A stretch of 64,000 bases of DNA. Source: an uncultured Sphingomonadaceae bacterium. GTDB taxonomy: Bacteria; Pseudomonadota; Alphaproteobacteria; Sphingomonadales; Sphingomonadaceae. The position numbers and the translations under genes are program-made. Below are positions 19,401 through 61,552 of the stretch, in pieces; position 1 is the stretch's first letter, and the number at the start of each line of letters is the position of its first letter. Under the pieces are notes generated by a model. That model was given only the letters and a program-made list of their open reading frames with translations. It was not told where the DNA came from and did no database searches. The stretch covers positions 1,984,001 to 2,048,000 of the forward strand of contig CANKZR010000001.1 of NCBI GenBank assembly GCA_947488625.1, given 5' to 3'.

Positions 19401-20324
19401 TCAGCAGACAGTCTCTACCCACCGATCGAGCCGCTCGGCAAACCGCCCGATCGTCCGGTAGCCGAAGTGATTGTGTCCGGTGCAAGGCAGGACCAGCAGC
19501 TGGAAATCTGTCAGGCTGGTGAAATGCCTTGGCACCTCGCTGGGCGCATCACCGATGTCGTTCTCTCCGAACAGGAAGAAGGTCGGGCAATCCAGTGCTG
19601 CGGCTTCTGCGCGGAACGAACCCTTCGTCATCGCCATGATCCCGCCCGCGCCGAACAACGGTCCAACCGCTGCCCGCAGAAAATCATTGGCGGCATCGTC
19701 CTCGCCGCCAAACAGGTTCGAGCCTGTTCTGGGTCCGGGGCCGCCATCCGGATAGGCGCAGCCGAACTTGCGCTGTACCAGATCAGGCAGGGCGCGTTCC
19801 AGTTCGGCAGGCCGGTCGATGAACTGGCGTTCCTGCTCGTCCAGACCCCACTCGAGGCCTCCCGCACCGCTGCCCATCAGGCACACCGCGTCGAAGGGGT
19901 TGCAATCAGCCTGTGCCAGAACAGTCAGCATCCCGCCCATCGAGTGGCCGGTTCCGACAAGTGAGCGCGCACCTTCGCCAAGCTCCCCGCGCAGCGCCTT
20001 GGCGACCGCCGCGATATAGCCGGCAGAAGTACGGGGCAGCAGGAATGGGTGATCGTCAGGCAGCGCGTTGTCGCCCGTTCCCGGCACGTCCATCGCCGCT
20101 ACGTGATGGCCCCGCGCCGTCATCAACCTGGCAAAACTGAGATCGGCCGCAACGGTGCTTCCCAGATCGAAATACCGGCGCGAGCTGGCTCCGCCCGGAA
20201 GGCAGAAGAAGCAGACACCGCTGGGCGCGCACTCGGGCCGGTATATCGCCACCTGCATCGCTCCCATCGATCCGTCTGCGAACGAAACCGGCAGCACGGC
20301 AATCTCGTCTGTCTTGTAATCCAT
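19401..20324 (-). CDS. Alpha/beta hydrolase
   Basis: This 307-residue alpha/beta-hydrolase-fold protein has the nucleophile elbow GTGHSMGGMLTV, an oxyanion segment CLPGGASSRRYF and a C-terminal TGHNHFGYR that supplies the catalytic His. It starts with the ATG at 20324, only three bases after the ferredoxin stop, so the two form an operon. An ester, lactone or ring-cleavage product hydrolase in the catabolic island is plausible, but the substrate is unknown. Confidence 0.87.
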   Translation of the reverse strand: MDYKTDEIAVLPVSFADGSMGAMQVAIYRPECAPSGVCFFCLPGGASSRRYFDLGSTVAADLSFARLMTARGHHVAAMDVPGTGDNALPDDHPFLLPRTSAGYIAAVAKALRGELGEGARSLVGTGHSMGGMLTVLAQADCNPFDAVCLMGSGAGGLEWGLDEQERQFIDRPAELERALPDLVQRKFGCAYPDGGPGPRTGSNLFGGEDDAANDFLRAAVGPLFGAGGIMAMTKGSFRAEAAALDCPTFFLFGENDIGDAPSEVPRHFTSLTDFQLLVLPCTGHNHFGYRTIGRFAERLDRWVETVC

Positions 20325-20327
20325 CTC

Positions 20328-20648
20328 TCAAACCTCCGGCGCAATGACGAGTTTTATGCCATCCAGCGCCGGGGTCAGCGCGATCTGGCACGACAGGCGC
20401 GAGGATGCCTTGACCTCCACCTCGTCCTCCAGCGCTTCAAGCATGTATTCTTCATCCTCCGTCCGTTCGCCCGTCGCTGCGAGCCAGGCTGGGTCTACAT
20501 AGACATGACAGGTGCCGCACGATGCCGCGCCGCCGCAGGTGCCCTTCACCAGATCGTCATTCTGGAGAGCTTCCATGAGCGAACCGCCGCCCTCGACGGA
20601 CAGGAGCCGCTCCGCTCCGTCAACTGTCTGCACCTCAACTGCTATCAT
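20328..20648 (-). CDS. [2Fe-2S] ferredoxin, adrenodoxin/P450 type
   Basis: This is a 106-residue plant/vertebrate-type ferredoxin of the ISC subgroup. Ligands are visible in GTCGGAASCGTCHVYVD (Cys-x5-Cys-x2-Cys), with a fourth Cys in SSRLSCQIALTPALDG. This is the spacing of adrenodoxin- and putidaredoxin-like donors for class I P450s. I take the ATG at 20648 (MIAVEVQT); the longer frame adds an unrelated basic N-terminus. It is divergent from the two-domain CoA transferase gene and about 12.5 kb from the P450, which it could serve. No ferredoxin reductase is in the window. Confidence 0.9.
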   Translation of the reverse strand: MIAVEVQTVDGAERLLSVEGGGSLMEALQNDDLVKGTCGGAASCGTCHVYVDPAWLAATGERTEDEEYMLEALEDEVEVKASSRLSCQIALTPALDGIKLVIAPEV

Positions 20649-20805
20649 CGTTTGCTCCTTTATCAGATCGACCTGAAATGAGTTTTTGAATTTCGTTCGG
20701 AAATTGATAAGCAGGGTTGTGAATCGCATTCAAGTGTTCTGGCAAGCTGCAATGGCAACGGCCAGATCATGAAATAGCGGAACGGGACGAGGAGGAGCGA
20801 AACGC

Positions 20806-23220
20806 ATGGCTGGTGTATTGGCGGGACTGAAAGTTCTGGACCTCAGCTGGGGCATAGCCGGGCCGATGGCCGGGATGCTGCTGGCCGATCACGGGGCGGA
20901 TGTAACGAGGATAGAGCGGCCCCAGGGCGATCCCTTTCCCGATCTCCTCGGCTACCACGTCTGGCACCGTGGCAAGAAGAACGCCGTATTCGATCTGAAG
21001 GACAAGGATGACCACGCGCTGTTCGTGCGCCTCGTGACCGAAGCGGACGTGCTTATCGAAAGTTTCTCGCCCGGAGTGACGTCGCGGCTGGGCATCGATT
21101 TCGACACGCTGTCGCAAATCAACCCCCGTCTCATCTACTGCTCGATCACAGCCTATGGCGAGGGAACGCCGGATCAGGATTGTCCCGGCTATGACGCGCT
21201 TGTCGCAGCACGCAGCGGCCTGCAATACGAGCAGCGCGGCTGGCCCGAAGGCGCCGTCAATCACATGAAGGGCCGCGATGTCCCCTTCGCCGAGGTCGAG
21301 ATCCCGCGCGAAAACGTTCAGGGTGCAAACCGTGATGGGCCGTTGTTCGTAGCTTCGCCCTGGCCCAGCCTCGGCGCGTTCTTCTCCGCTTCGCTCGGCA
21401 TCGCTGCTGCCCTGTATGTCCGGGAGCGAACCGGGCAGGGACAAAAGGTCAGTACCTCGCTGCAACAAGGCGCGATGGTATGCGCCAGCGGCGTTTGGCA
21501 GCGGATGGGGAACCCGGATGCCGAAGGCTTCGATACCTGGATCATGAACGCCCGCTCGCCCAAGGGACATTTCGAGGGTGCGGATGGCGAATGGCTGCAC
21601 AATTGGGTGCCCAATCCGCGCTTCATCCTGGAAGCATCGAAGGGCGCAACGCTGGATGCGACGCCCGACCTGACGGTGCAGAACGATCCCGACCGCTTCG
21701 GCATCGGTCCCGAAGAATTGCTGGTGATGGCGCATTACCAGCCTATCCTCGCCGAAGCGGTGCGCAAGTTTCCCGTCGCGCAGTGGGTCGACGCCGCGGC
21801 AACGGCCGAAGTCACGATGCAGCCCTGCCGCTCGGTGGAGGAATCGCTTACCGATCCGCTGCTGATGGCGGATAATTGCGTTACCACGGTCGAGGATGCG
21901 CAGCTTGGCGCTATCAATCAGGTGGGCATCACCTACCGGCTGGAAACCAGCCCCGGCGACATTCAGGGGCCGATGCGCGCATGCGGAGCGGACACAACCG
22001 AGGTAAAGCGCCACGCCGCCTCGCTGCCTGAACCCGTCCCTCGCCCGGCGGCCGAGGCGAAGCCCGCGCCACCGCTGGCAGGAGTAAGGGTAATTGATCT
22101 GGGGCTGGCAATTGCCGGGCCGTTCGGTTGCCAGCTGCTGGGCGATCTGGGTGCCGATGTCATCAAGGTTAATACCTTGTGGGACATGTACTGGCACCGC
22201 ACCCACATTGCCTACATGGCGAACCGCAACAAGCGTTCGATTGCCCTGATGCTGAAACATCCAAAGGCGATGGAGGCGCTCCACCGCCTGCTTGGCACGG
22301 CAGACGTGGTGCAACACAATATGCGTTACGGGGCGGTAGAGCGGCTGGGTCTCGACTATGCCACCCTGAAGGAGCGGTACCCCCGCCTTGTCTACTGCCA
22401 TTCGCGAGGGTTCGAGAAGGGGCCGCGCATGAACCTGCCAGGCAATGACCAGACCGGTGCATGTCTCGCCGGTATCCAGCATGAGGATGGCGCACTTCAT
22501 ACAGGCGAGGGGTTCCCGTTCTGGTCGCTTACCTCGCTGGGCGATACTGGCAACGGCTTCCTCAGCGCCATCGGCATCTGCAACGCACTGATGGATCGAG
22601 AGCGCACCGGGCGCGGCCAGTTCGTCGACACGTCCATCATCAACGCCGCGCTCCTCAACACAAGCTATGCCGTGGCAACCGCCAGCGGCGAACCTGTAGA
22701 GCGGCCCCGACTGGATGCGTCGCAGACAGGGTATGGTCCGCATTACCGCCTGTATCGCTGCGCCGATGACAAGTGGATCCAGATCGCGGCGATTACCGGG
22801 GAGCAACAGGCGGCATTCGCCGGTCTGGCCGATCCGGACCCGGAAACGGTGTTTGCCAGCGCACCGGCCGCAGACATGCTCGAGCGGTTGCAATCCGTCG
22901 GGGTACCGGCCGAGGTTTCGAATGCTGATGCCAGCCGCAAGGTGTTCGATAATCCCGACTTTGCCAAGCGCGGATGGACCACGCGCTACGAACACCGCGA
23001 CGTGGGCACCCTTGAACAGATCGGCTCCAGCTACGCGCTGTCGGGTGCCGCGCCGCCAGAACACATTCCGCCGATGATTGTCGGGGATGCAACCGCCGAG
23101 CTTCTGACGGAGCTAGGCTACAGCGAAGAGGAAATCGATGCACTGGCGCAGGAAACCGCCATCCTGTGCGATCCTCCGCGCGCCGGGCAGAAGGAGCTAG
23201 ACAGTCCATGGGGAATGTAG
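20806..23220 (+). CDS. Tandem two-domain CaiB/BaiF-family CoA transferase
   Basis: This 804-residue protein contains two complete family III CoA-transferase domains (about 1-390 and 425-800) joined by a Pro/Ala linker. Each begins with the typical strand-helix unit (VLDLSWGIAGPMAGMLLADHG and VIDLGLAIAGPFGCQLLGD). The second domain has the expected Gly-Asp (TSLGDTGNGFLSAIG), while the first has SPWPSLGAFFSASLG there and lacks the aspartate. The protein may therefore be an internally paired heterodimer with one active lobe. It would exchange CoA between acyl groups, or possibly racemise. Its last codons overlap the DUF35 gene start. Confidence 0.93.
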   Translation: MAGVLAGLKVLDLSWGIAGPMAGMLLADHGADVTRIERPQGDPFPDLLGYHVWHRGKKNAVFDLKDKDDHALFVRLVTEADVLIESFSPGVTSRLGIDFDTLSQINPRLIYCSITAYGEGTPDQDCPGYDALVAARSGLQYEQRGWPEGAVNHMKGRDVPFAEVEIPRENVQGANRDGPLFVASPWPSLGAFFSASLGIAAALYVRERTGQGQKVSTSLQQGAMVCASGVWQRMGNPDAEGFDTWIMNARSPKGHFEGADGEWLHNWVPNPRFILEASKGATLDATPDLTVQNDPDRFGIGPEELLVMAHYQPILAEAVRKFPVAQWVDAAATAEVTMQPCRSVEESLTDPLLMADNCVTTVEDAQLGAINQVGITYRLETSPGDIQGPMRACGADTTEVKRHAASLPEPVPRPAAEAKPAPPLAGVRVIDLGLAIAGPFGCQLLGDLGADVIKVNTLWDMYWHRTHIAYMANRNKRSIALMLKHPKAMEALHRLLGTADVVQHNMRYGAVERLGLDYATLKERYPRLVYCHSRGFEKGPRMNLPGNDQTGACLAGIQHEDGALHTGEGFPFWSLTSLGDTGNGFLSAIGICNALMDRERTGRGQFVDTSIINAALLNTSYAVATASGEPVERPRLDASQTGYGPHYRLYRCADDKWIQIAAITGEQQAAFAGLADPDPETVFASAPAADMLERLQSVGVPAEVSNADASRKVFDNPDFAKRGWTTRYEHRDVGTLEQIGSSYALSGAAPPEHIPPMIVGDATAELLTELGYSEEEIDALAQETAILCDPPRAGQKELDSPWGM

Positions 23221-23633
23221 AGAATTTGGGAGCCCGGCCCGATCCGGTCGTGCGGGTAGACAGCGCCTTCTTCTGGGAGGCCTGTGAGCGCGGCGAATTC
23301 GTGGCGCAGCGCTGCGAAGGATGCGAACGGCTGTGGCACCCGCCCCGGCCGATGTGCCCCATCTGTCACTCGACAGAGAAAAGCGCCGCCGCGCTGTCGG
23401 GCAAAGGTGTCGTGATGAGCTACGTCATGCCTGTCCATCCGCCCGCTTACGGCTTTGCCGAACCGCCGATCGCCGCGCTGATCGAGTTGGAAGAAGGTTT
23501 GCGGTTTGTCGGCACGCTGGTCGATGTGGAACCTGCCTCCATTCGCGTCGGCATGCCGGTGCAGGTCTCCTTTGCGGCAACTTCGGGAGGCAAGGCGGTG
23601 CCGGTCTTCCGCCCGACAGAGGACATCACATGA
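23208..23633 (+). CDS. DUF35 / Zn-ribbon OB-fold protein, partner of the thiolase-like protein
   Basis: This 141-residue protein has an N-terminal rubredoxin-like zinc ribbon (RCEGCERLWHPPRPMCPIC: Cys36, 39, 50, 53) followed by a DUF35 OB-fold (about 60-140). The ATG overlaps the previous gene by 13 bases and the stop overlaps the next ATG (ATGA), so the three genes are translationally coupled. DUF35 proteins form obligate complexes with thiolase-superfamily partners, for example ChsH2-DUF35 with the steroid aldolase Ltp2, or the archaeal thiolase/HMG-CoA synthase complex. The adjacent gene encodes exactly such a partner. Confidence 0.92.
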   Translation: MGNVENLGARPDPVVRVDSAFFWEACERGEFVAQRCEGCERLWHPPRPMCPICHSTEKSAAALSGKGVVMSYVMPVHPPAYGFAEPPIAALIELEEGLRFVGTLVDVEPASIRVGMPVQVSFAATSGGKAVPVFRPTEDIT

Positions 23634-24778
23634 GCAGACGGGCCGTCATCGCCGGAATTGGGCAAACCGAATTTTCCAAGGACTCCGGCCGTTCGGAGCA
23701 GCAGCTTGCCGCCGAGTGCGTAACCTCTGCGTGTATCGATGCGGGGCTCGACCCGCATGCAATCGACGGAATGATCACTTTCGCGCTCGACCACTCGGAC
23801 GAGGTGGACGTCATGCGCTCCACCGGCGCGCAGGAACTCAAATACACCGTTCGCCTGCCCCAGGGCGGCGCTGCCAGCGTAACGTCGGTAGTTCACGCCA
23901 AGAATGCAGTGGAATCGGGCATGTGCGATGCCGTGGTGATCTGGCGCGCGATGAACGAGCGGTCGCAATACCGGTTTGGCCAGCCGCACCAGTCGCTGTC
24001 TCCCGATGCCCATTCCTCCACCTTCATCGAATGGTGTTTTCCCTTCGGCGCGCAGACGCCGGCGGCCTGGGAGGTATTATCCTGCGGCACCTATCTCGAT
24101 ACTATCGGGGTCACGACACAGGATCTGGGCCGGATCGCCGTTATCCTCCGGCGTGCGGCGGCAACCAATCCGCTGGCGCAGTTCTACGATCGTCCGATCA
24201 CGCTCGAGGATCACCAGGCTTCGCGCTGGATCGTGCAGCCATGGCTGCGCCTGCTCGATTGCTGCCAGGAATCGGATGGTGGTGTCGCGCTGCTCGTCAC
24301 GACGGAGGAACGGGCCCGCGACCTCAGACAGAAACCGGTGCGCATCCTCGGCGCAGAATATGCCTTCTGCTTCAATCACGAAATCATCAGCGACTTCTAC
24401 GAAGGCGATCTCACCCGGCTGCACAACAGCGAAGCGGTAACGAAACGATTGACTGCAGCTGCCGGAATAGCACCGCGCGAGACCGATGTTGCAATGATCT
24501 ACGACAACTTTACGCCGCAAGTGCTGCGCCAGCTGGAAGGCTTCGGCTACTGCGGATACGGCGAGGCGAAAGACTACGTGGCCGACGGGCACCTGGACCT
24601 GGACGGCCGCACCCCGCTCAGTCCCAACGGGGGTCTGCTGGGCGAAGCGTATATTCACGGCATGAACAACTTCACCGAAGGCGTGCGACAGCTGCGCGGT
24701 ACGGCGGCGAACCAGATTGCTGATGCACAAACCGTGTTCATGGCATCCGGCGTCGCCGGTGCGATCCTGGGAATTTAA
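23630..24778 (+). CDS. Thiolase-superfamily protein of the lipid-transfer (SCP-x/Ltp2) group, candidate retro-aldolase
   Basis: This 382-residue protein has the thiolase fold, beginning RRAVIAGIGQTEFS. The position that normally carries the nucleophilic Cys reads PQGGAASVTSVVHA and has none, so Claisen thiolysis is unlikely. The C-terminal half has MIYDNFTPQVL (Tyr291), GFGYCGYGEAKDYV and GGLLGEAYIHGMNNF (Tyr341). The steroid-side-chain aldolase Ltp2 is reported to use two tyrosines, which I recall as Tyr294 and Tyr344; the 50-residue spacing is the same. With the coupled DUF35 gene upstream, this is best read as an Ltp2-like carbon-carbon lyase. Thiolase-like activity on another substrate remains possible. 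Confidence 0.88.
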   Translation: MSRRAVIAGIGQTEFSKDSGRSEQQLAAECVTSACIDAGLDPHAIDGMITFALDHSDEVDVMRSTGAQELKYTVRLPQGGAASVTSVVHAKNAVESGMCDAVVIWRAMNERSQYRFGQPHQSLSPDAHSSTFIEWCFPFGAQTPAAWEVLSCGTYLDTIGVTTQDLGRIAVILRRAAATNPLAQFYDRPITLEDHQASRWIVQPWLRLLDCCQESDGGVALLVTTEERARDLRQKPVRILGAEYAFCFNHEIISDFYEGDLTRLHNSEAVTKRLTAAAGIAPRETDVAMIYDNFTPQVLRQLEGFGYCGYGEAKDYVADGHLDLDGRTPLSPNGGLLGEAYIHGMNNFTEGVRQLRGTAANQIADAQTVFMASGVAGAILGI

Positions 24779-24790
24779 GGAGAGAAGGCG

Positions 24791-25093
24791 TTGAAGTTAA
24801 AGGCAGGAACAAAGCTTGAAAGTGCGGTTTGCGACACGCAGGTCATGGTGCTGCGGGTTCCGGACAGAGACCTGGATGTGCGCTGCGGCGGCGTGCCCCT
24901 TCAGCTTGACCCAGGTCAGCAGGAAGGTGAGCCGGAAGCTGGCTTCGACGGCGGAACGCTGGTCGGCAAACGCTATAACGATGCCGATGATACGATGGAG
25001 TTTCTGTGCACGCGGGGGGGTGCGGGAAGCTTGAGCGTGGATGGCACCCTGCTTGAACAAAAGCTTGCCAAGAAGCTTCCCTCCTCTGACTGA
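24791..25093 (+). CDS. Small conserved-looking protein of unknown function (100 aa, TTG start)
   Basis: This 100-residue protein starts at TTG 24791 behind a clear Shine-Dalgarno sequence (AAGGAGAG, 24778-24785) and lies between the thiolase-like and ligase genes. It has three cysteines (14, 32, 73), a motif VRCGGVPLQL, a motif LVGKRYND and a C-terminal LAKKLPSSD. No signal peptide or membrane segment is seen. I cannot assign a family with confidence. My impression, from memory only, is that similar small proteins occur beside acyl-CoA synthetases in actinobacteria. Its place in a tight operon supports a real gene. Confidence 0.75.
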   Translation: MKLKAGTKLESAVCDTQVMVLRVPDRDLDVRCGGVPLQLDPGQQEGEPEAGFDGGTLVGKRYNDADDTMEFLCTRGGAGSLSVDGTLLEQKLAKKLPSSD

Positions 25094-25105: not shown

Positions 25106-26593
25106 ATGAATCTGTCCTTGATATTGCAGATGGCGGCGGATGCCATGCCCGATCGGGTGGCCCTCACGTCCAGCGATGACCAACTCACCTATGGCGAGCT
25201 TCAACGGCTTTCAGTCGCGGCGGCAAAGCGCATCGGGCCGAACCGCAAGATAGCTTACGTAGCCGAGAACTCTGCCGCGGCCCCCATCGCGCTGTTCGGA
25301 GCGGCGTTGGCCGGAGTGCCTTATGTTCCGATCAACTACCGGCTCGCGCCCGACCGTGTGGAGGCGCTGCTCCGCCGGGTTGGTCCATGTCTGCTGGTTG
25401 GCGAAGCCGATGCGGTACTGCCGCAGGTAGAGCAGATTGATCCTGCAGCCTTCCTGGCCGACCTGCGCACTTTCGACGGCGAAACCGCCCACGATATGCC
25501 TGAGGAAGAGGGCGGCATCGCGGTGGAACTGTTCACCAGCGGCACGACCGGCGAGCCCAAGGCGGCAATTCTGCGTCACAATCACCTGCTTGCCTACATC
25601 CTGGGCTCGGTTGAGTTCATGGCGGCGAGTGAGGACGAGGCGGCCCTGGTGACGGTACCGCCCTATCATATTGCGGGCGTTTCAACGGTGCTGAGCTCCA
25701 CTTATGCAGGACGCCGCACCGTGCAACTGCCCAGCTTCACGCCCGAGGCATGGATCGATCTGGCTGAACGTGAGGATATCACGCAAGCCTTTCTGGTTCC
25801 CACCATGTTGCAGCGGATCGTCGCTGTGGGGCAGGAGCGCGGCGGACTGCATCTGCCGGCGCTGCGATCGATCGCGTATGGTGGCGGCAGGATGCCTTTG
25901 TCGGTCATCGAAGCGGCCATGGAGATGTTGCCGGACGTGGCGTTCACCAATGCCTACGGCCTCACCGAGACGAGCTCCACGATCGCGCTACTGGGACCAG
26001 ATGAACACCGCGTCGCCGCCGCATCGACCGACCCGGCAATTCGTCGCCGCCTGGCATCGGTAGGCAAGCCCCTGCCGGAACTGGAGATAGAAATCCGCAC
26101 CGCGTCCGGTGCACGGTGCGAGACTGGTGAGACGGGCGACCTCTACGTTCGCGGCGAGCAGGTCAGCGGCGAATATGCCGGCGGGGCCGCCAAGGATCGG
26201 ACAGATGGATGGTTCGCGACCCGCGACCGTGCGTGCCTGGACGCGGACGGTTTCTTGTTTCTCGATGGACGCGCCGACGATGTGATCGTGCGCGGCGGGG
26301 AGAACATATCTCCAGGTGAAATCGAGGATGTGCTGGCCTCGCACCCTGCCGTTCAGGAGGCTGCAGCGGTTGGCATACCCGACGACGAATGGGGTGAGGC
26401 AATCGGGGTGGCCGTCGTGCTGCGCGATGGCATGGCGCAGCCAGAGCCGGAGGAACTGATCGATCATATCCGCGCCCAGCTGCGCTCGAGCAGGATACCA
26501 GGCGTCATCCGCTTCATCGACCAGCTGCCATACAACGAGATGGGCAAGCTTTTGCGGCGTGAGATCGGCGCCATTCTGCAAACGTCGGCATGA
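25106..26593 (+). CDS. Acyl-CoA synthetase (AMP-forming, ANL superfamily)
   Basis: This 495-residue ANL-family enzyme has the P-loop-like ELFTSGTTGEPKAAILRH (about residue 143), NAYGLTETSSTIALLG (A5), DGWFATRDRACLDADGFLFLDGR (A7/A8 hinge) and the C-terminal catalytic lysine region YNEMGKLLRREI. It would activate a carboxylic acid to its CoA thioester with ATP. It follows the small orphan gene by 12 bases, and its stop overlaps the start of the next gene (ATGA). Substrate class cannot be read reliably; the island context favours a cyclic or branched acid. Confidence 0.92.
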   Translation: MNLSLILQMAADAMPDRVALTSSDDQLTYGELQRLSVAAAKRIGPNRKIAYVAENSAAAPIALFGAALAGVPYVPINYRLAPDRVEALLRRVGPCLLVGEADAVLPQVEQIDPAAFLADLRTFDGETAHDMPEEEGGIAVELFTSGTTGEPKAAILRHNHLLAYILGSVEFMAASEDEAALVTVPPYHIAGVSTVLSSTYAGRRTVQLPSFTPEAWIDLAEREDITQAFLVPTMLQRIVAVGQERGGLHLPALRSIAYGGGRMPLSVIEAAMEMLPDVAFTNAYGLTETSSTIALLGPDEHRVAAASTDPAIRRRLASVGKPLPELEIEIRTASGARCETGETGDLYVRGEQVSGEYAGGAAKDRTDGWFATRDRACLDADGFLFLDGRADDVIVRGGENISPGEIEDVLASHPAVQEAAAVGIPDDEWGEAIGVAVVLRDGMAQPEPEELIDHIRAQLRSSRIPGVIRFIDQLPYNEMGKLLRREIGAILQTSA

Positions 26594-27819
26594 CTGACCA
26601 TCCGGCACTCGCATGGCGACGGTCGGGGTTGATGGCGGTGACAGGCCATGCGGCCGGAAGTTCGCTGGTTTGCCCCGCCGACCTCACGAGTGCTGCCGAG
26701 CGCAGTCTGGCGCGACTCCGCGCCGCTGCGCCTGATGGTCATCGCTTGCCTGCAAACGGCGCGGCGCTGCTGGGAGAGCGGGCTCGGATGCTGGGGCTTG
26801 GTCGGCACGGTCGCACTTCGGCCAATACGTTTTGTCATCTCTTCCGCGCCAGCAACGGGACCATCGCCCTCAATCTGGCGCGCGAGGATGACATGGCGCT
26901 GATGCCCGCCTGGCTGGAACGCCCGGTCACCACGCTAGAAGGTATCGCTGCGGCAATCGGCAATCGCGACGCAGCGCATTTGCTCGATCGTGGACGCGAG
27001 ATGGGACTTGCGGTGGCATGTCCGGGGACAGCAAGCGAAGTCGATACCGATGCGGAACCGCAGCGCATAGGACGGCGGCAGGAGCCGCGCGAACGAACAC
27101 CGCTGGTGGTCGATCTTTCGTCCCTGTGGGCCGGACCGCTCGCCGGTTCGCTTCTGGCGATGACGGGAGCGCAAGTGATCAAGGTCGAAAGTACCAGTCG
27201 CCCAGATGCTGCCCGGCTTGGCAACCGCATGGTCTTCGACTTGCTGAATGCGGGCAAGCTCAGCGTTGCCCTTGATTTTGCAAGTCTATCGGGTCGCAAT
27301 GCGCTGATCGATCTGCTTGTACGAGCCGACATCGTGATCGAAGGCTCACGGCCGCGCGCTCTGCGACAACTTGGCGTCCATGCAGAGGAACTGGTGCGCG
27401 CAAAATCTGGCAAGGTGTGGGTGTCCATCACCGCGCATGGGCGCAAAGGGGAAGCTGCAAGCTGGACCGGCTTTGGCGACGATGCCGCCGTCGCGGGCGG
27501 GCTGGCGACGGCGATGGAGGCAGGCTGGGGCGAACTGCTGTTCGCAGGCGACGCAATCGCCGATCCCCTGGTAGGCCTGGCTGCCGCACAAGCAGCTTGG
27601 GCGAGCTGGCTGCGCGGCGGCAGCGAGCTGCTTTCTCTTTCGTTATCGGGAACAATCGCGTCAGCCTTGCGGCGCGACGATGCCATAAACCACCAGCGAA
27701 CGGTGAACTGGCAGAGACTGGCAGAAGCCGATACTGCGCCGCTTTACCCGCTGCGGACCGCGCCACCGGCACCGCCAATGGGTGCGGACAACCATCAGGT
27801 TCTGGCGGCGGCATGCTGA
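26590..27819 (+). CDS. CoA-transferase family III protein with rearranged domain order
   Basis: This 409-residue protein's N-terminal about 170 residues resemble the distal lobe of a CaiB/BaiF protein (CHLFRASNGTIALNLAREDDMALMP). A typical family N-terminus then appears only at about residue 174 (VVDLSSLWAGPLAGSLLAMTG). A Gly-Asp at the expected catalytic position is present (LLFAGDAIADPLVGLAAA). It thus looks circularly permuted or assembled from two lobes and lacks a full distal domain. ATGA overlap with the ligase and a 7-base overlap with the amidohydrolase place it firmly in the operon. Activity is uncertain. Confidence 0.82.
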   Translation: MTDHPALAWRRSGLMAVTGHAAGSSLVCPADLTSAAERSLARLRAAAPDGHRLPANGAALLGERARMLGLGRHGRTSANTFCHLFRASNGTIALNLAREDDMALMPAWLERPVTTLEGIAAAIGNRDAAHLLDRGREMGLAVACPGTASEVDTDAEPQRIGRRQEPRERTPLVVDLSSLWAGPLAGSLLAMTGAQVIKVESTSRPDAARLGNRMVFDLLNAGKLSVALDFASLSGRNALIDLLVRADIVIEGSRPRALRQLGVHAEELVRAKSGKVWVSITAHGRKGEAASWTGFGDDAAVAGGLATAMEAGWGELLFAGDAIADPLVGLAAAQAAWASWLRGGSELLSLSLSGTIASALRRDDAINHQRTVNWQRLAEADTAPLYPLRTAPPAPPMGADNHQVLAAAC

Positions 27820-29159
27820 TTAGGAACGCCGACCTGATGGGACGTCTTTGCGATGTGCGCGTTACCGGGGGGCGCATCGCCGCAATTGGCCATTTGCAAC
27901 CTGAGGAAGGCGAACAGCTTCTCGACGCGGGCAACGGGGCGTTGCTCCCCGGTTTGCACGATCATCACATCCACCTGAACGCAGCAGCTGCGGCTCGCAC
28001 GTCGATTACCTGCGGACCGCCTGCCGTCGGTTCGGCGGACGATCTGGTTGCCGCACTGCATGACGCGCCGGGCACCGAATGGCTCCGCGGCATCGGCTGG
28101 CACGCTTCTGTGACGGGTGAGATCGACCGTCAGTGGCTCGACCGAAACGGTCCGGCTCGGCCCATTCGCATCCAGCATCGCGGCGGCCGCATGTGGGTCG
28201 TCAATACCTTGGCGGCAGAACTGCTCGATATTGACTGTCCTGCCGACGGACGCTTGATCGACCGCGACACGCAATTGGCAGCGGCTCGCCGCGACCCGCC
28301 AGACCTTGCCGCTCTGGGCGAAGCGATGGCGCGCCATGGTATCACCGGCGTAACGGACACGACCCCGCGCAACGATGACCGCGATGCGGAGCATTATGCC
28401 CGGTGTGGAATGCCGCAGCGCATCGCGGTGATGGGCGGTCCGGCGATGACCGACGGCGGGACCAGCGGCCTCCCGGTGATTGCGCGTAAGCTGCACTATC
28501 ACGACCACGACCTGCCTCCGCTGGCCGACCTGGCCAGGCTTGTAGCGCGGGAACACGAACGTGACCGCCCGGTGGCCGCCCACTGCGTGACCGAAGCGGA
28601 GTTGTGGCTGGTGCTGGCAGCGATCGAGCAATCCGGACCGCACCCGGGCGACCGCATCGAACACGCCGCTCTGTGCAGCGACGACGCCATGGAGGCGATT
28701 GCCCGCCTTGATCTCACGGTCGTGACCCAGCCGCAATTCTTGACAGAGAGGCAAGCGGCCTACCGCGCCGAGGTCCCTCCCCACCAGCACGCGCAGCTTT
28801 GGCGTTTGGGCGCGTTTCTGCGGCACGGTGTTCGCCTGGCAGCTGGCAGCGACCATCCCTTCGGTGGCCTTGGCCCATGGCAGGCAATGGCAGCGGCCTG
28901 TAACCGGCCCGATGGTTTCGGGCATGACGAAGCGATCAGCCCCGAACAAGCGCTCGCGCTTTATACCAAGCCTGTCTGCAATGCCGGCGCACCATCCCGG
29001 CAGGTCGAGGCGGGCACCGTGGCCGATCTTTGTCTCCTGTCCCGCCCATGGCAGGACGTGCGGCTGGATCTTGGCGCTGTCCGGGTGCAGGCCACGATCA
29101 TCGGCGGTCGGTTCGCCTATCAGCGGAGCTCATCCACAAGGCCCCAGGCCAGCGCCTGA
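27813..29159 (+). CDS. Amidohydrolase-superfamily protein, YtcJ-like
   Basis: This metal-dependent hydrolase of about 448 residues has the N-terminal metal motif LPGLHDHHIHLNA, internal histidines in VAAHCVTEAE and RIEHAALCSDD, and the C-terminal LAAGSDHPFGGLGPW aspartate. The ATG at 27813 overlaps the previous stop by 7 bases. The gene runs 40 bases into the end of the convergent enoyl-CoA-hydratase-like gene. It probably hydrolyses an amide, lactone or cyclic imide. In a CoA pathway this could open a lactone formed by Baeyer-Villiger-like oxidation, but that is speculation. Confidence 0.85.
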   Translation: MLIRNADLMGRLCDVRVTGGRIAAIGHLQPEEGEQLLDAGNGALLPGLHDHHIHLNAAAAARTSITCGPPAVGSADDLVAALHDAPGTEWLRGIGWHASVTGEIDRQWLDRNGPARPIRIQHRGGRMWVVNTLAAELLDIDCPADGRLIDRDTQLAAARRDPPDLAALGEAMARHGITGVTDTTPRNDDRDAEHYARCGMPQRIAVMGGPAMTDGGTSGLPVIARKLHYHDHDLPPLADLARLVAREHERDRPVAAHCVTEAELWLVLAAIEQSGPHPGDRIEHAALCSDDAMEAIARLDLTVVTQPQFLTERQAAYRAEVPPHQHAQLWRLGAFLRHGVRLAAGSDHPFGGLGPWQAMAAACNRPDGFGHDEAISPEQALALYTKPVCNAGAPSRQVEAGTVADLCLLSRPWQDVRLDLGAVRVQATIIGGRFAYQRSSSTRPQASA

Positions 29160-30058
29160 CGAGCACGGACCCGCGCCATCGACAGCGCCATCCAGACGGT
29201 CCGGTGCCGTCCGATCCGCCCCGCAACGCTGACCGTTCCGCCCGCGCCGGGGATCAAGCCATAGGCAAGTTCGGGAAGCTGAAACCATGCCCGCTTGCTA
29301 GCGGTCAAATGCTTGGCGAATGCGGCCATCTCCAGCCCCGCTCCGATCGCCGCGCCATCGACGTGCACGTGCAAACGCTGATGCAGGCGGAGCAGGCGGC
29401 TGGCCGGCAAGCGCACCGTTCGGATCGCGTGCGCCGTTGCGGGATCGCTGACCGTGCCGAACTCCCCTACCGCGCCGCCGGTGCTGAACACACGGCCGCT
29501 AGCCTCTAGCGAAACCTGTTCGATTTGCTGGTCGAGAACCGCCACATCCAGCGCCTCGCACAGGGCGTCCCGCATGGTCGTGCCGATTTCATTCCGACGA
29601 TCGGGGTCGTTCAGGACAAGGCGCAGGTGCGAACCCGTTCGCTCGACCAGAAGTGGCGCGGCATTACCAGACAAGCTCGTGGAACCATCCGGGCGGGAGC
29701 GTTGCCAACGCCGGAACTCCTGCCCGTGCTGTACCGCCGCATAGGCAAGGCTTTCGGCTGTCAGTGCCGCAGCGGGGGGAAGCGGCCGCGTCATCCGCAT
29801 CAATTGCACGAGTACGCTGGCCGTGAAGGGAGCGTTCGCGACGTTGCGCATGACGCGCACGACCTCATCGGCTGTCAATCGGGTATCGCAAGCGGGATCG
29901 AAAGGCCCAACTCCCAGCACCGGACATGGGAAACGCTCGACCAGGTCGGGATCGACTGGGCCGACCGCTGTATCCACCAATAGCGCGGGCCTAGCGGTGA
30001 GCGGCCCCACATCCTGCGGGTCCATCCACGCCAGCGATTGCGGTTCGAGCAACTCCAT
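29120..30058 (-). CDS. Enoyl-CoA hydratase/isomerase homologue with N-terminal extension
   Basis: This 312-residue protein has a crotonase-like part starting only at about residue 120 (PLLVERTGSHLRLVLNDPDRR), with EASGRVFSTGGAVGEFG, VDGAAIGAGLEMAAF and FQLPELAYGLIPGAGGTVSVAG. The first 115 residues are not part of a normal hydratase and contain SLAWMDPQDVGPLTARPALL. The C-terminal helices are short. Start MELLEPQSL at 30058. It is the only minus-strand gene within this part of the island. It overlaps the amidohydrolase 3' end and diverges from the TetR gene. A hydratase or isomerase role is plausible. Confidence 0.78.
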   Translation of the reverse strand: MELLEPQSLAWMDPQDVGPLTARPALLVDTAVGPVDPDLVERFPCPVLGVGPFDPACDTRLTADEVVRVMRNVANAPFTASVLVQLMRMTRPLPPAAALTAESLAYAAVQHGQEFRRWQRSRPDGSTSLSGNAAPLLVERTGSHLRLVLNDPDRRNEIGTTMRDALCEALDVAVLDQQIEQVSLEASGRVFSTGGAVGEFGTVSDPATAHAIRTVRLPASRLLRLHQRLHVHVDGAAIGAGLEMAAFAKHLTASKRAWFQLPELAYGLIPGAGGTVSVAGRIGRHRTVWMALSMARVRARQALAWGLVDELR

Positions 30059-30117
30059 GTCACCCGTCTGCCACTTCGCCGCAACAACTGCCACGATTTT
30101 ACCAATTGACAGCAAAC

Positions 30118-30141: not shown

Positions 30142-30152
30142 GGATTCGGAAA

Positions 30153-30854
30153 ATGACTGATAAACCCCTCACCCTTTCGCCAAGCGCCACCGACGATGGC
30201 CCAAGCCCCGTGGGACGTCCGCGCCTGTTGACGCGCGAAGCCATTCTCGATGCGGCGTTGGAACTGGGGCTGGAAGCGCTGACCATGAAGCGGCTGGCGG
30301 CCAAGCTGGGTACCGGGGCGGCGACGCTTTACCAGTATTTCGACAATCGCGACGCCTTGTTGCGTGCGGCTGCGCTGCATGCGTTTCAGGACATGCACCT
30401 GCCGTGCGATACCGACCAGCATTGGACAGAGTTCGCGCGCGACCACGCTCGCATCATGCAGGCTGTTCTGGTCGAGAACCCATCGGCAATTTCCCATTAC
30501 GTGCAGGCGGATTACGGTTTCGAGGTGCAGATCGAGATGGTCGAACACTTCCTCGCCACGATGCAGCGGCGCAGCTTCAGCGCCGAAGAAGGCATGGTGT
30601 TGCTGCGCGGTGTAACGATGGCGTCCATGAGCGGCGCGATGGAGATCATTCGCGAGCGCGCGTTCCTGGCTCGCGGAACCAAGCCGACCGATGTGCTTGA
30701 TCGGCAGCTTGCCGCGGCGCCGGAAGCCGATTTTCCCCTGACGCGATCCGTACGCGCTCAGCTTGCGGCTCCGGCAGATACCCTGCTCGACCAGTTCCTG
30801 GAACCGGTCCTGCAGGCCTGGTTGCTACGCCGGGGTGAACAAATGCCGGAATGA
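30153..30854 (+). CDS. TetR-family transcriptional regulator
   Basis: This 233-residue TetR regulator has a helix-turn-helix at about residues 25-70 (AILDAALELGLEALTMKRLAAKLGTGAATLYQYF), preceded by a flexible N-terminus, and an all-helical ligand-binding domain behind it. It lies at the centre of the island, divergent from the hydratase-like gene and 49 bases before the SDR that opens the P450/Rieske operon. It is the best candidate for the island's local regulator, and a CoA thioester or the substrate may be its ligand. Confidence 0.9.
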   Translation: MTDKPLTLSPSATDDGPSPVGRPRLLTREAILDAALELGLEALTMKRLAAKLGTGAATLYQYFDNRDALLRAAALHAFQDMHLPCDTDQHWTEFARDHARIMQAVLVENPSAISHYVQADYGFEVQIEMVEHFLATMQRRSFSAEEGMVLLRGVTMASMSGAMEIIRERAFLARGTKPTDVLDRQLAAAPEADFPLTRSVRAQLAAPADTLLDQFLEPVLQAWLLRRGEQMPE

Positions 30855-31782: not shown

Positions 31783-33213
31783 ATGAACGACATGAACCCT
31801 GCAACAACGTATGATCACGACTTCTCCGCCATGTTCGAAAAGCTGCACGACCGATCGCTGGAACTGGCAGCCACGAGTGCCGAGGAGCGCGTCGAGAAAA
31901 TCAAGCGGCTCTACCGTGCGGTGTATGATCTGAGGCACGAGATAAGCCGGACAGGTCACTCCGAGCTGGGCATGGACGGCAAGATGCACCTTGTGCCGCT
32001 CAAGGGCGAGGTCGAGTTCGTGTGCGAACGGCTGGCAGGGTGGATGGAGCGCGAGCCGGTGGAAGACGTACTGGCGCTGCAGGGGCGCAAGGGATTCATC
32101 CATTACGAGCCCAAGGGCGTGGTGCTGCATCTGGCCACCTGGAACAGCCCGGTATTGATTGCCATTTCCCCGCTGATCGGCATGATCGCGGCTGGCAACG
32201 CGATCGTGGTGAAACCTTCCGAGATCACGCCCAATTCCGCTGAACTGGTGCGCAAGATCATCGACGGGGCCGATCTGGCGGACGACATCGCCGTCGTCAC
32301 CGGCGGACCGGACGTGGCCGAATCGCTGCTGAAGCTTCCGTTCAATCACATCTGCTATGTGGGCAACAACCGAGTGGGCAAGCTGGTGATGAAGGCGGCT
32401 GCCGAACACTTCGCGGGTGTCACGCTAGAAATGGGAGGCAAGAACCCGGCAATAGTAGCTGCCGACGCAGATGTTGCGGATGCTGCGGCCAAGCTTGCAT
32501 TCGCGCGCAATCTCATCTCGGGGCAGGTATGCCTCGCCCCCGATTACGTACTGGTCGAAGAGCAGGTTAGGGAGGCTTTTACGAGTGCACTCGTCAGCAG
32601 TCTTGAACAGATGTTCAACCCCGAGGGCGCTGGCTTTGACAAATCGAAGGATCTTGCCCGCATCGTCAACGCGCGCCATGCCAGCCGCATCAAGGAGCTG
32701 ATCGATGATGCGACCGGCAAGGGCGCGGAAATCGTTCACGGCGGAAACGTGGATGTGGACAGCTGCTTTGTGGAGCCCACAGTCATTACCGGCATCACCG
32801 ATGACATGGCTATCGCGCAGGAAGAGGTCTTTGGCCCAGTCATTGCCATCAGCGGCGTTGCTTCGAACAAGGCGGCGATCGATGAAATCGCCAAGCGGCC
32901 AAAACCGCTGGCCATCTACATCTTTACCTCCTCACGCGAAACCGCCGACTGGTATCTTGCGAATACGCGGGCGGGCACCAGCGCCATCAACAATGCCGTG
33001 GTGCAGGCGAATATCCCGACCCTGCCGTTCGGCGGCGTCAATCACAGCGGTATTGGCAGGCTCGGGGGTCATGCCGGCTTCAAGGAGTTTTCCAATGCCA
33101 GGTCGGTGGTGGAAGACGCTCTGAACCCTGCCGAAGGCACGCCGATGACCTATCCGCCCTTTCCAGCCGAAGCTGCGATGTTCATCGATATGCTTCTGAC
33201 GCCGAGCGACTGA
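31783..33213 (+). CDS. Aldehyde dehydrogenase (coniferyl-aldehyde-dehydrogenase-like)
   Basis: This 476-residue NAD(P)-dependent aldehyde dehydrogenase of the shorter class 3/coniferyl aldehyde type has ATWNSPVLIAISPLIGMIAAG, KPSEITPNSAELV, TLEMGGKNPAIV (general base Glu) and SGQVCLAPDYVLV with catalytic Cys250. It would convert an aldehyde to the acid, the substrate for the ligase. Its stop overlaps the P450 start codon (TGATG), and it follows the SDR by 9 bases, so it belongs to one operon. Confidence 0.93.
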   Translation: MNDMNPATTYDHDFSAMFEKLHDRSLELAATSAEERVEKIKRLYRAVYDLRHEISRTGHSELGMDGKMHLVPLKGEVEFVCERLAGWMEREPVEDVLALQGRKGFIHYEPKGVVLHLATWNSPVLIAISPLIGMIAAGNAIVVKPSEITPNSAELVRKIIDGADLADDIAVVTGGPDVAESLLKLPFNHICYVGNNRVGKLVMKAAAEHFAGVTLEMGGKNPAIVAADADVADAAAKLAFARNLISGQVCLAPDYVLVEEQVREAFTSALVSSLEQMFNPEGAGFDKSKDLARIVNARHASRIKELIDDATGKGAEIVHGGNVDVDSCFVEPTVITGITDDMAIAQEEVFGPVIAISGVASNKAAIDEIAKRPKPLAIYIFTSSRETADWYLANTRAGTSAINNAVVQANIPTLPFGGVNHSGIGRLGGHAGFKEFSNARSVVEDALNPAEGTPMTYPPFPAEAAMFIDMLLTPSD

Positions 33214-34649
33214 TGGCTACGTCCGCCCCAGCGCCGGACGAAGTCCGAACCTCGGCACCAAAGGCGACCGACAAGATCCCCGACGTGCCGGGCCTGCCGC
33301 TTCTTGGCAACACGCTGGAAATGGCACGCGATCCGGCGGCCTTCTTCCTGAGGGCTTACCGCGATTATGGTCCGGTCTACCGGGTGAACGTCTTCGGGCG
33401 GCGCACGATTGTCATCGCCGGCCCAGAAGCCAGCACCTTCATGACTACGCGCGACGGCCGCGACAGCTTGCGTTCCAAAGAGTTCTGGGGCGATTTCGTC
33501 GACTTCCACGGCGCATCCAAGACGCTGACGGGCGAGGATGGGAAAACCCACGAGAAGTTGCGCCGGATCATGCGGCACGGGTTCTCCAAGGCCGCTGTTG
33601 CCGGACAATATCATCGGCTGGCGCAGATTACAGATGAGGCAATTGAGCGCGATTGGCTTTCGCGCCCGCAAGTGCCGGTCGTCGAAGCTTATCAATACCT
33701 TATCGTGGCGCAACTGGGCGAGATCATGACCGGCCACGCGCCGCTGGAATATGTGCCCGATATTCGCCTCAACATCCTGTATCTGCTCAACACGCTGGTG
33801 GCGCGCACCCGGCCCAAGATCCTGCTCCACCGGCCCGAATTCAAACGCGCCAATGCGCGGGTGAACGAACTTGGCCGCGACATGATCGCCGAGTTCAAGG
33901 GGCATGCGGCAGCGGGAACCCTGCCCTCGAACCTGCTGGGAGATATCATGCACGCGCATGAGACCGATCCCGACCTCATTCAGGAGCGCGACCTCGCCCT
34001 GTTGCTTACCGGCCCCTATGTTGCCGGGCTGGACACGGTGGCTAACACGATTGCGGCAGCAACCTACGGCATCCTGAAAACGCCGGGCGTGCTGGAGCGC
34101 GTGCAGGCAGAGGCCGATGCGCTGTATGCGAAGGATGTCGTGACGGAGCAGGACATTCACAACCTGCCCGCTATCAACGGGGCCATCATGGAGGCCATGC
34201 GGCTGTGGCCCATCGCGGTGGCTCAGATGCGCACCGCGATCGAAGATTTCTCCTTCGCCGGCTACACCATTCCCGCAGGCGAGATGATCTACATCGGCAC
34301 CAGCGTTCCGCATTTCATGGAAGAATACTTTCCCGAACCGGAGCGCTTCGACATCGACCGCTATCAGCGGCCTCGCGCCGAACATCTGCAGAAGGGTGCC
34401 TACAGCCCATTTGGCCGCGGCCCCCACTCGTGCCTTGGTCAAAGCCTTGCCGAAGTACAGATGGCCGCAACGGTTTCTCGCATATTCCACCGGCTCGACC
34501 TGGCGTTGCCCAGCCCCGATTACGTGCTGAAGACCAAGTCAGCTCCAACCCCCGGCCCGTCCATGGACTTCAAGGTCCGTGTGCTGGGCGAACGAAGGCC
34601 GGCAAGAGCCTTGAAACCCGAACAAAGAGAGGAGAAGTCCGATGGCTAG
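33213..34649 (+). CDS. Cytochrome P450
   Basis: This 478-residue bacterial P450 has no membrane anchor but a Pro-rich N-terminus (DKIPDVPGLPLLGNT). Landmarks are the oxygen-binding I-helix AGLDT (271-275), the ExxR motif EAMR (327-330) and the heme loop FGRGPHSCLG with the thiolate Cys407. The general form is closer to multi-substrate and sterol-type P450s (CYP51/CYP120-like) than to CYP101, but I cannot fix the family. It overlaps both neighbours, so stoichiometric production with the Rieske protein is likely. The ferredoxin at 20328-20648 could donate electrons. Confidence 0.95.
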   Translation: MATSAPAPDEVRTSAPKATDKIPDVPGLPLLGNTLEMARDPAAFFLRAYRDYGPVYRVNVFGRRTIVIAGPEASTFMTTRDGRDSLRSKEFWGDFVDFHGASKTLTGEDGKTHEKLRRIMRHGFSKAAVAGQYHRLAQITDEAIERDWLSRPQVPVVEAYQYLIVAQLGEIMTGHAPLEYVPDIRLNILYLLNTLVARTRPKILLHRPEFKRANARVNELGRDMIAEFKGHAAAGTLPSNLLGDIMHAHETDPDLIQERDLALLLTGPYVAGLDTVANTIAAATYGILKTPGVLERVQAEADALYAKDVVTEQDIHNLPAINGAIMEAMRLWPIAVAQMRTAIEDFSFAGYTIPAGEMIYIGTSVPHFMEEYFPEPERFDIDRYQRPRAEHLQKGAYSPFGRGPHSCLGQSLAEVQMAATVSRIFHRLDLALPSPDYVLKTKSAPTPGPSMDFKVRVLGERRPARALKPEQREEKSDG

Positions 34650-57997: not shown

Positions 57998-58003
57998 TGC
58001 TCG

Positions 58004-60184: not shown

Positions 60185-60188
60185 CGGG

Positions 60189-61394: not shown

Positions 61395-61552
61395 TGGAGC
61401 GATTCTCCCGAGGTCGATTGCAGACGAACCGGTGTTCATCCGTTTGACCATTGCCTTTTCCGCGACAGCCGCTGCCATCACCTACCCTGCGATAGGACGA
61501 GCGGAAGAAAAAGACTGTCTTTCGGCAACGAATGACAATGCGAAAAAGCGGT

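Follow-up and report, generated by a model that had tools for sequence, protein, structure and literature searches.

Within a 64,000-nucleotide stretch of contig CANKZR010000001.1 (positions 1,984,001 to 2,048,000; assembly GCA_947488625.1) of an uncultured Sphingomonadaceae bacterium, hereafter the window, two overlapping genes probably encode a DUF35-aldolase complex that performs the retro-aldol cleavage of a beta-hydroxyacyl-coenzyme A (CoA) in steroid side-chain degradation. Judging from the sequence, we put the probability of this reading at about 0.72. That the larger of the two proteins is a predicted retro-aldolase rather than a thiolase is well supported, and a steroid is the favoured substrate, on the basis of the linkage to KshA genes and of the HsaA/HsaC-like genes in related genomes. 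The two genes are:

23208..23633, forward strand: DUF35 / ChsH2-C-like stand-alone protein, 141 amino acids (rubredoxin-like zinc ribbon and OB domain)
23630..24778, forward strand: predicted Ltp2-like retro-aldolase of the YDNF clade, 382 amino acids (6ok1_A match, model, alignment, tree)

The gene pair and its catalytic residues

As the sequence-only reading of this DNA had described them, both open reading frames are intact and are joined by an ATGA overlap, in which the ATG occupies 23630-23632 and the TGA 23631-23633. The DUF35 start (23208) also overlaps the 3' end of a gene for an 804-residue CoA-transferase (20806-23220), so that at least three genes are closely packed here. The GC content of the module is 61.6%, against 58-60% in the remaining window.

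When the 382-residue protein was compared with the PDB by phmmer, the top match was Ltp2 (6ok1_A, E 5.1e-113, 380.6 bits), followed by the putative thiolase 4u4e (161.2 bits) and by Sal (9myr_A, 110.5 bits); the thiolase 7yvy of Pyrococcus furiosus scored 92.5 bits and benzoylsuccinyl-CoA thiolase 81.7 bits. An AlphaFold2 model of this protein, made with an alignment of 28 sequences from the window and the fetched loci, has a mean predicted local distance difference test score (pLDDT) of 86 and a predicted template modelling score (pTM) of 0.90. Searched with Foldseek, the model has 6ok1 first among the PDB chains listed (template modelling score 0.91, root-mean-square deviation 2.4-2.5), and after it 4u4e (0.81) and Sal-Shy (9myr, 0.83).

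Among the NCBIfam models, the lipid-transfer protein model PRK07855 gives 464.8 with the window protein, just under its cut-off of 469. Three other members of the clade score 484, 497 and 521, two canonical Ltp2 proteins 598 and 648, and one homologue with a YDAF motif 508, by which the model covers more than Ltp2. The scores against PRK06059 (99.5) and PRK07937 (38.3) are far below the 464.8 of PRK07855; we take these two models to correspond to Ltp3 and Ltp4, the aldol lyases of the C24 branch.

As to the 141-residue protein, its top PDB match by phmmer is the ChsH2(DUF35) chain 6ok1_B (E 1e-27), and the Pfam domains zf-ChsH2 and OB_ChsH2_C both match over cut-off. Its residues C36, C39, C50 and C53 form a C-x2-C-x10-C-x2-C motif, and the identical spacing is quoted for the C4 zinc site of the ChsH2-DUF35 of Thermomonospora curvata (PMC12329534). 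What marks a DUF35 partner is thus present, namely a zinc ribbon with an OB domain, the C4 motif and a gene adjoining that of the aldolase. The partner had been called ChsH2-like, and this stands for the DUF35 domains, which are the only ones seen in the translation and by Pfam; the MaoC N-terminal domain of ChsH2 is missing, so that the protein amounts to the DUF35 half of ChsH2.

The segment at the site of the thiolase nucleophile reads PQGGAASV and contains no Cys, as had been noticed earlier. In the alignment with 7YVY the thiolase Cys falls on G80, the His of the HDAF motif on Y291 and the His of the GHP motif on Y341; these are the three positions that we take to be catalytic in thiolases, and since neither Cys nor His is found at any of them, identity as a thiolase was rejected. 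Scripted numbering places Tyr291 within MIYDNF and Tyr341 within GEAYIHGM, 50 residues apart, exactly where they had been reported. In the alignment with the Ltp2 structure, these residues fall on two tyrosines which the numbering of the 6OK1 sequence puts at Tyr294 and Tyr344, the very positions that the sequence-only reading had given for Ltp2; in the Ltp2 of T. curvata (TcLtp2) they are named the catalytic base and acid, respectively (PMC12329534). The homology, the paired tyrosines, the loss of the thiolase residues and the predicted fold favour a retro-aldolase acting with DUF35, in agreement with the earlier proposal of a carbon-carbon lyase.

The position two residues after Tyr291 is occupied by Asn293, where TcLtp2 has the oxyanion-hole His296. 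The role of this His is a proposed one, and its replacement in TcLtp2 lowers the catalytic efficiency about 14-fold, an impairment reported as only modest (PMC12329534); an Asn at this place therefore need not abolish activity. In a wider alignment of 33 rows (31 loci and two solved structures), Tyr291 is kept in 33/33 and Tyr341 in 32/33, while position 293 holds His in 17 rows, Asn in six, Ala in five, Cys in four and Ser in one. By this alignment position 293 is the variable one, and the second Tyr is not special to Ltp2, since rows with other motifs keep it as well. Nine Ltp2-like homologues from the family (L022-L030) have Ala (5) or Cys (4) at the oxyanion-His position and keep the second Tyr, a pattern that suggests additional, uncharacterised aldolase clades.

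A sister clade of Ltp2 and its linkage to steroid genes

The window protein belongs, in a maximum-likelihood tree with 46 rows, to a 19-row clade (support 99/92) that stands beside a 16-row canonical clade holding TcLtp2 (100/99), the node joining both having support 100/99. The tree has a midpoint root and several outer rows on long branches, so that calling the clades sisters assumes the outer rows to be the outgroup. On this assumption the 382-residue protein is a member of a supported sister clade of Ltp2, outside the characterised Ltp2 clade. When the window's clade (18 rows, without the partial L064) is compared with the 16 canonical rows, Y291, Y341 and G80 are identical in 34/34, and position 293 is Asn in 18/18 of the former and His in 16/16 of the latter. 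L166 (Phe in the canonical rows) and N347 (Gly) are also fixed both ways, and A81 (Gly) nearly so, at 17/18 and 16/16. The description of the pair as an Ltp2/ChsH2-like module was thus apt for the kind of enzyme and for its DUF35 partner, and needs to be amended as to the sister clade and the Asn in place of the oxyanion His.

The genome has a second homologue, which is canonical. It is encoded on contig C3 (37134-38252), has the YDHF motif, lies inside the canonical clade, and is 47% identical to the window protein; its identity to TcLtp2 is 67%, compared with 49% for the window protein. In its vicinity there are a frame at 39822-40856 with MaoC-type and DUF35 matches (FAS1_DH at 40299-40706, DUF35 at 39831-40205) and a second stretch, 38318-38647, that matches MaoC; a KshA scoring 199 bits lies at 65151. 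This organism consequently has an igr-like set and, separately, the module of the window. The separate steroid-type cluster spans about 37-66 kb of C3, a contig of 221 kb.

The clade is present in at least six of the 298 sampled genomes of the window's family, its own included, as judged from the fetched loci, which alone were placed in the tree. At the level of the class, 2/385 genomes match at E<=1e-90, one of them being the window's own, and none of the six other genomes listed for the same genus matches at E<=1e-40. A scan of named genomes gave 13 loci (L052-L064) at 73-77% identity, with record titles naming Hellea, the PS1 clade, IMCC14465, Rhodobiaceae, Sphingomonadales and other alphaproteobacterial bins; a distant match from the same scan (L065, 30%) was left out of later comparisons. 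Overall, the clade protein is 71-77% identical to 16 relatives and 53-55% identical to two. In the 12 named genomes searched whole it is the sole match at E<=1e-30 (12/12), and the six family genomes with the clade each have a second copy at 46-48%, of which the one whose motif was read is that of the window's own genome.

The domain profile PF12172 missed the DUF35 on contig C3 that tblastn found, which makes it unreliable for fusions of the ChsH2 type; absence of MaoC-DUF35 fusions in the relatives was therefore judged by FAS1_DH. By this measure no such fusion was found in seven named genomes, where, the Hellea bin G301 excepted, the best FAS1_DH scores are 21-35 bits (one 312-residue frame, with 35 bits in G298, being unread), compared with 62-76 bits in three ChsH2-like frames of family genomes. 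In G301, FAS1_DH scores 64 bits in a 187-residue frame beside a separate 161-residue DUF35 frame; these neighbouring MaoC and DUF35 frames (contig C8, 79780-80643) lie away from the module.

The earlier suggestion was that the neighbours suit a steroid- or terpenoid-like substrate; a steroid is favoured by linkage to KshA in the canonical range, by which we mean KshA_C scores comparable to the 199 bits of the copy on contig C3. All 12 named genomes searched have a KshA_C match, at 174-206 bits in 11 of them, and in six of the 12 the aldolase and a canonical-range KshA share a contig, 8.8-13.3 kb apart in five cases and 69 kb apart in one. Among the 298 family genomes KshA_C is found at E<=1e-40 in 38, including 6/6 of those found with the clade (the window's own counted); the hypergeometric p for this co-occurrence, with kinship not corrected, is 3e-6.

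Hellea balneolensis has HsaA- and HsaC-like genes at a distance of 42-47 kb from the aldolase; their NCBIfam matches (HsaA the best, HsaC the second) both stay under the curated cut-offs. Also encoded in the 640-720 kb region of this genome are a CoA-transferase and an additional CoA ligase, as well as two acyl-CoA dehydrogenases and two FAD_binding_2 flavoproteins that we label KstD-like. Contig C10 of IMCC14465 has homologues of three Hellea genes (KshA, HsaA-like and HsaC-like) and of the module's own KshA-like gene (see below), and on it a single-domain MaoC is found close to two paired acyl-CoA dehydrogenases; the aldolase of this genome, however, is encoded on C13. In Hellea (L057, 2813-5852) the TonB receptor and the hydrolase are separated by sulfatase and alkyl-sulfatase-like genes, and homologues of these are near the module's KshA-like gene in IMCC14465 (G307:C10, 8575-11508), hinting at sulfated steroids as substrates; tblastn with the Hellea copies did not find such genes in the window.

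The surrounding gene cluster

The genes around the pair are as follows:

19401..20324, reverse strand: alpha/beta hydrolase (Pfam Abhydrolase_6; synteny)
20328..20729, reverse strand: 2Fe-2S ferredoxin, which may serve the P450 or the Rieske enzyme as redox partner (Pfam Fer2; synteny)
20806..23220, forward strand: fused double CaiB/BaiF CoA-transferase, 804 amino acids (Pfam CoA_transf_3, two stretches; synteny)
24791..25093, forward strand: conserved protein of 100 amino acids (54-61% to 12 aligned copies)
25106..26593, forward strand: AMP-forming acyl-CoA ligase, 495 amino acids (Pfam AMP-binding; synteny)
26590..27819, forward strand: second CaiB/BaiF-type CoA-transferase, 409 amino acids (Pfam CoA_transf_3; synteny)
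27798..29159 (stretch scanned; start unsettled), forward strand: Amidohydrolase_3 family protein (Pfam; synteny)
29120..30115, reverse strand: enoyl-CoA hydratase (crotonase) domain protein, candidate hydratase (Pfam ECH_1; synteny)
30150..30854 (start approximate), forward strand: TetR-type regulator (Pfam TetR_N; synteny)
33213..34649, forward strand: cytochrome P450, 478 amino acids (Pfam p450; synteny)
34642..35670, forward strand: KshA-like Rieske oxygenase, 342 amino acids (Pfam KshA_C, Rieske; synteny)
35708..36490, forward strand: short-chain dehydrogenase (SDR) (Pfam; 60-63% copies in L054-L059 and L064)
36565..39108, forward strand: TonB-dependent receptor, 847 amino acids (Pfam)

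When 22 window genes were compared by tblastn with the 13 loci L052-L064, the gene order appeared largely conserved within the extent of each locus: alpha/beta hydrolase, ferredoxin, double CoA-transferase, DUF35, aldolase, 100-residue protein, CoA ligase, second CoA-transferase, amidohydrolase, hydratase-like protein, TetR, P450, KshA-like Rieske oxygenase and SDR. No CoA ligase was found by tblastn in L053 or L054. In L054-L059 and L064 the P450 is followed by the KshA-like gene, and in L062 it is not; L060, L061 and L063 end before the KshA-like gene, L053 ends without the P450, and L064 begins inside the aldolase. The KshA-like match of L052 is only 30% identical and lies elsewhere; beyond this locus the same contig has a copy 74% identical to that of Hellea. 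The window's second SDR and its aldehyde dehydrogenase have no counterpart at the equivalent place in the loci, and the TonB receptor, downstream in the window, has related receptors upstream of the cluster in L052, L053 and L055-L059. In the other family genomes the gene set is partial or rearranged.

The double CoA-transferase has copies 66-70% identical in the 11 loci that hold it; its nearest solved relatives are formyl-CoA transferase and alpha-methylacyl-CoA racemase, and benzylsuccinate CoA-transferase is also among its relatives. The P450, with copies 63-66% identical in 9/13 loci, has CYP51 (E 1.6e-34), CYP120 and CYP46A1 (E 4.2e-26) as its nearest solved structures; none of the 26 sequences listed at E<=1e-20 carries the name Cyp125 or Cyp142, though some are named just 'cytochrome P450'. 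The KshA-like Rieske enzyme is nearest, among solved structures, to KshA 4qdc (E 3.2e-31), and its 61-65% identical copies adjoin the P450 where they follow it. The domain of the crotonase-type protein covers residues 166-329 and is preceded by an N-terminal stretch that is unusual and about 150 residues long; the start of the protein is unsettled, as the copies align from about residue 20-60 onwards. The Pfam match ends at profile position 172 of 251, and in the phmmer alignment with 4fzw two Glu positions match, which we take to be the catalytic glutamates of crotonases.

The 100-residue protein has no Pfam or NCBIfam match at E<=0.001, and its structure model is poor (pLDDT 44.5). Related copies are present in 22/298 family genomes, 16 of which were not found with the aldolase clade, and in 3/6 of the clade-bearing genomes (G071, G139 and G011) copies lie away from the aldolase; its value as a marker of the module is weakened accordingly. 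A further beta-oxidation group, with acyl-CoA dehydrogenase, FadJ-like, thiolase and CaiB genes, lies at 56840-63626 of the window, and its CaiB protein shares 48% identity with one from the steroid region of Hellea.

Proposed mechanism, alternatives and known systems

What follows on the chemistry, complex formation, the substrate, the part played by each neighbour and the sequence of steps is inferred. The complex would probably consist of two of each chain, as in 6OK1. Tyr291 would take the proton of the beta-hydroxyl, cleavage of the C-C bond would leave the ring side as a ketone (or aldehyde) and generate an acyl-CoA enolate, and Tyr341 would protonate the enolate, with release of propionyl-CoA or acetyl-CoA. 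No acyl-enzyme would be formed, because the thiolase Cys is replaced by Gly, and the oxyanion role of the canonical His might pass to Asn293 or to backbone amides. As for the neighbours, the TonB receptor could provide uptake, the P450, the Rieske oxygenase and the ferredoxin oxidation, and the CoA ligase and CoA-transferases activation of the substrate. The latter is presumably a tertiary beta-hydroxyacyl-CoA, produced either by the crotonase-type hydratase, which would possibly replace the MaoC hydratase ChsH1/ChsH2, or from a tertiary alcohol made by an oxygenase.

Known systems tie the aldolase to the hydratase through DUF35, as in ChsH1-ChsH2-Ltp2 and Shy-Sal (PMC11321319, PMC12329534). 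Papers disagree on the importance of this domain, which seems unimportant for activity according to one (PMC11321319) and indispensable for the aldolase according to another (PMC12502768). In the latter, separately expressed ChsH2-DUF35 supports the aldolase of Comamonas testosteroni TA441, so that a stand-alone DUF35 need not preclude activity.

Several observations weigh against a steroid aldolase. The confidence of the model is low at residues 119-129 and 338-340, the latter being the loop directly before Tyr341, and the change from His to Asn hits an active-site residue. The conserved module, as delimited by the synteny of the 13 loci, contains no acyl-CoA dehydrogenase, and the hydratase is a guess. 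In one of the 12 named genomes (G308) KshA_C tops out at 83.7 bits, and as most of these genomes are metagenome bins or similar, the finding of a single copy may partly reflect missing sequence. Finally, the module is on contig C1 and the canonical Ltp2 and KshA are on C3; a genome that already has a canonical Ltp2 would use the window copy for something else or hold it as redundant.

These last points are also the grounds for supposing that the same retro-aldolase chemistry is applied to a branched acyl-CoA other than a steroid, such as a terpenoid, a polyketide-like compound or another lipid, the steroid linkage being due to a clustering of hydrophobic catabolism; the clade-specific A81, N293, L336 and N347, near the active-site motifs in sequence, likewise suggest another substrate. 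We consider this unlikely, as nothing but the clade protein matches at E<=1e-30 in any of the 12 named genomes, 11 of which have a canonical-range KshA, as such a KshA lies within 8.8-13.3 kb of the aldolase in five of them, and as the window cluster itself has a KshA-like Rieske enzyme. Much less probable is a catalytically reduced paralogue, serving mainly as a scaffold or binder of CoA esters, in which a needed His was lost to Asn. The 14-fold cost of replacing His296 speaks for it (PMC12329534), but the TcLtp2 variant is just modestly impaired, none of the 18 clade rows departs from Tyr291 and Tyr341, and the protein is well conserved among its 18 relatives and the sole match at E<=1e-30 in the 12 genomes. 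A working thiolase or C-acyltransferase (BbsAB-, PhlABC- or acetoacetyl-CoA-thiolase-like) pairing with DUF35 is hardly credible: the fold, the partner family and CoA-transferase neighbours resembling the Bbs system are shared, but all three thiolase catalytic positions are replaced (G80, Y291, Y341) and benzoylsuccinyl-CoA thiolase scores 81.7 bits against 380.6 for Ltp2.

If the pair is a steroid aldolase, as we prefer, the cluster might go further and constitute an undescribed aerobic route for the uptake and degradation of sterols or sulfated sterols with alkyl side chains in marine Alphaproteobacteria, including the PS1 clade. This tentative and rather doubtful scheme would combine uptake by the TonB receptor, the sulfatases of the Hellea and PS1 copies, a P450 nearest, among solved structures, to the CYP51 and CYP46A1 types and not to Cyp125 or Cyp142, and the MaoC-uncoupled aldolase of the new clade, with the crotonase-type hydratase or the oxygenase-made tertiary alcohol in place of the MaoC hydratase. 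The genomes of the PS1 clade are small (1.2-1.9 Mb of sequence). Should the cluster serve sterol side chains, it would name candidate steroid users among streamlined bacteria, whose habitat is the surface ocean. It would then also bear on the use of alkyl-side-chain sterols by Proteobacteria, among which a 2016 survey reports no Cyp125/142 orthologues and no tested member that metabolised cholesterol (PMC4810484).

What is new here, so far as sequence comparison can tell, is a clade, sister to Ltp2, in which the oxyanion position is altered, together with its stand-alone DUF35 and a conserved steroid-linked cluster. No description of the YDNF clade or of the cluster was found among the literature matches listed, which were mostly without subscription papers. 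That Hellea probably degrades steroids had been indicated before: in sponge metagenomes, Holert et al. (2018) assigned hits of steroid-degradation hidden Markov models to this genus (PMC5790920). The production of 17-ketosteroids from side-chain precursors by steroid aldolases is relevant to the manufacture of steroid drugs and to the removal of steroids from water, and a sister clade in which the oxyanion residue is altered and the DUF35 uncoupled lends itself naturally to testing what determines side-chain length and hydratase coupling.

Of the known systems, BbsAB (benzoylsuccinyl-CoA thiolase) and PhlABC have the thiolase fold and DUF35 in common with the window pair, but are named as thiolase or acyltransferase and score much lower. 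The putative thiolase 4U4E of Sphaerobacter thermophilus shares the fold and the first Tyr, in a YDSF motif, but has His at the position of the second Tyr and is 29% identical in the fold comparison. The bile-salt cluster bsd I of Caenibius tardaugens includes Scd4AB, SclA and the MaoC-like Shy1; it was rejected as a counterpart, the available description containing no DUF35-aldolase pair (PMC12882949). Sal-Shy(DUF35) of C. testosteroni (9MYR) is likewise a thiolase-fold retro-aldolase with DUF35, and the first catalytic Tyr is common to both. However, Sal, an aldolase of C5 side chains, uses Tyr302 and Cys304, its second Tyr is replaced by Gln, and the zinc site is of the C3H1 type (PMC12329534), whereas the window protein has Asn at the position of the Cys, keeps the second Tyr and is paired with a C4 motif; identity with Sal was rejected, as the motif is YDN with Tyr341 instead of YDC with Gln.

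The nearest system is that of Ltp2-ChsH2(DUF35) of T. curvata (6OK1) and the igr-type operons. Ltp2 is an aldolase of steroid C3 side chains, defined by the conversion of a 17-hydroxy C22-oyl-CoA steroid into a 17-ketone with release of propionyl-CoA. The window protein differs from Ltp2 by YDNF instead of YDHF and by lacking the short C-terminal insertion of the canonical clade; its DUF35 comes without MaoC, and no ChsE or ChsH genes are directly beside it. While the Ltp2 proteins of C. testosteroni and actinobacteria are 61-64% identical (PMC12502768), the 49% identity of the window protein to TcLtp2 falls below this range. The likeness lies in the fold, the spacing of the tyrosines, the Gly at the position of the thiolase Cys and a DUF35 partner with a C4 zinc motif.

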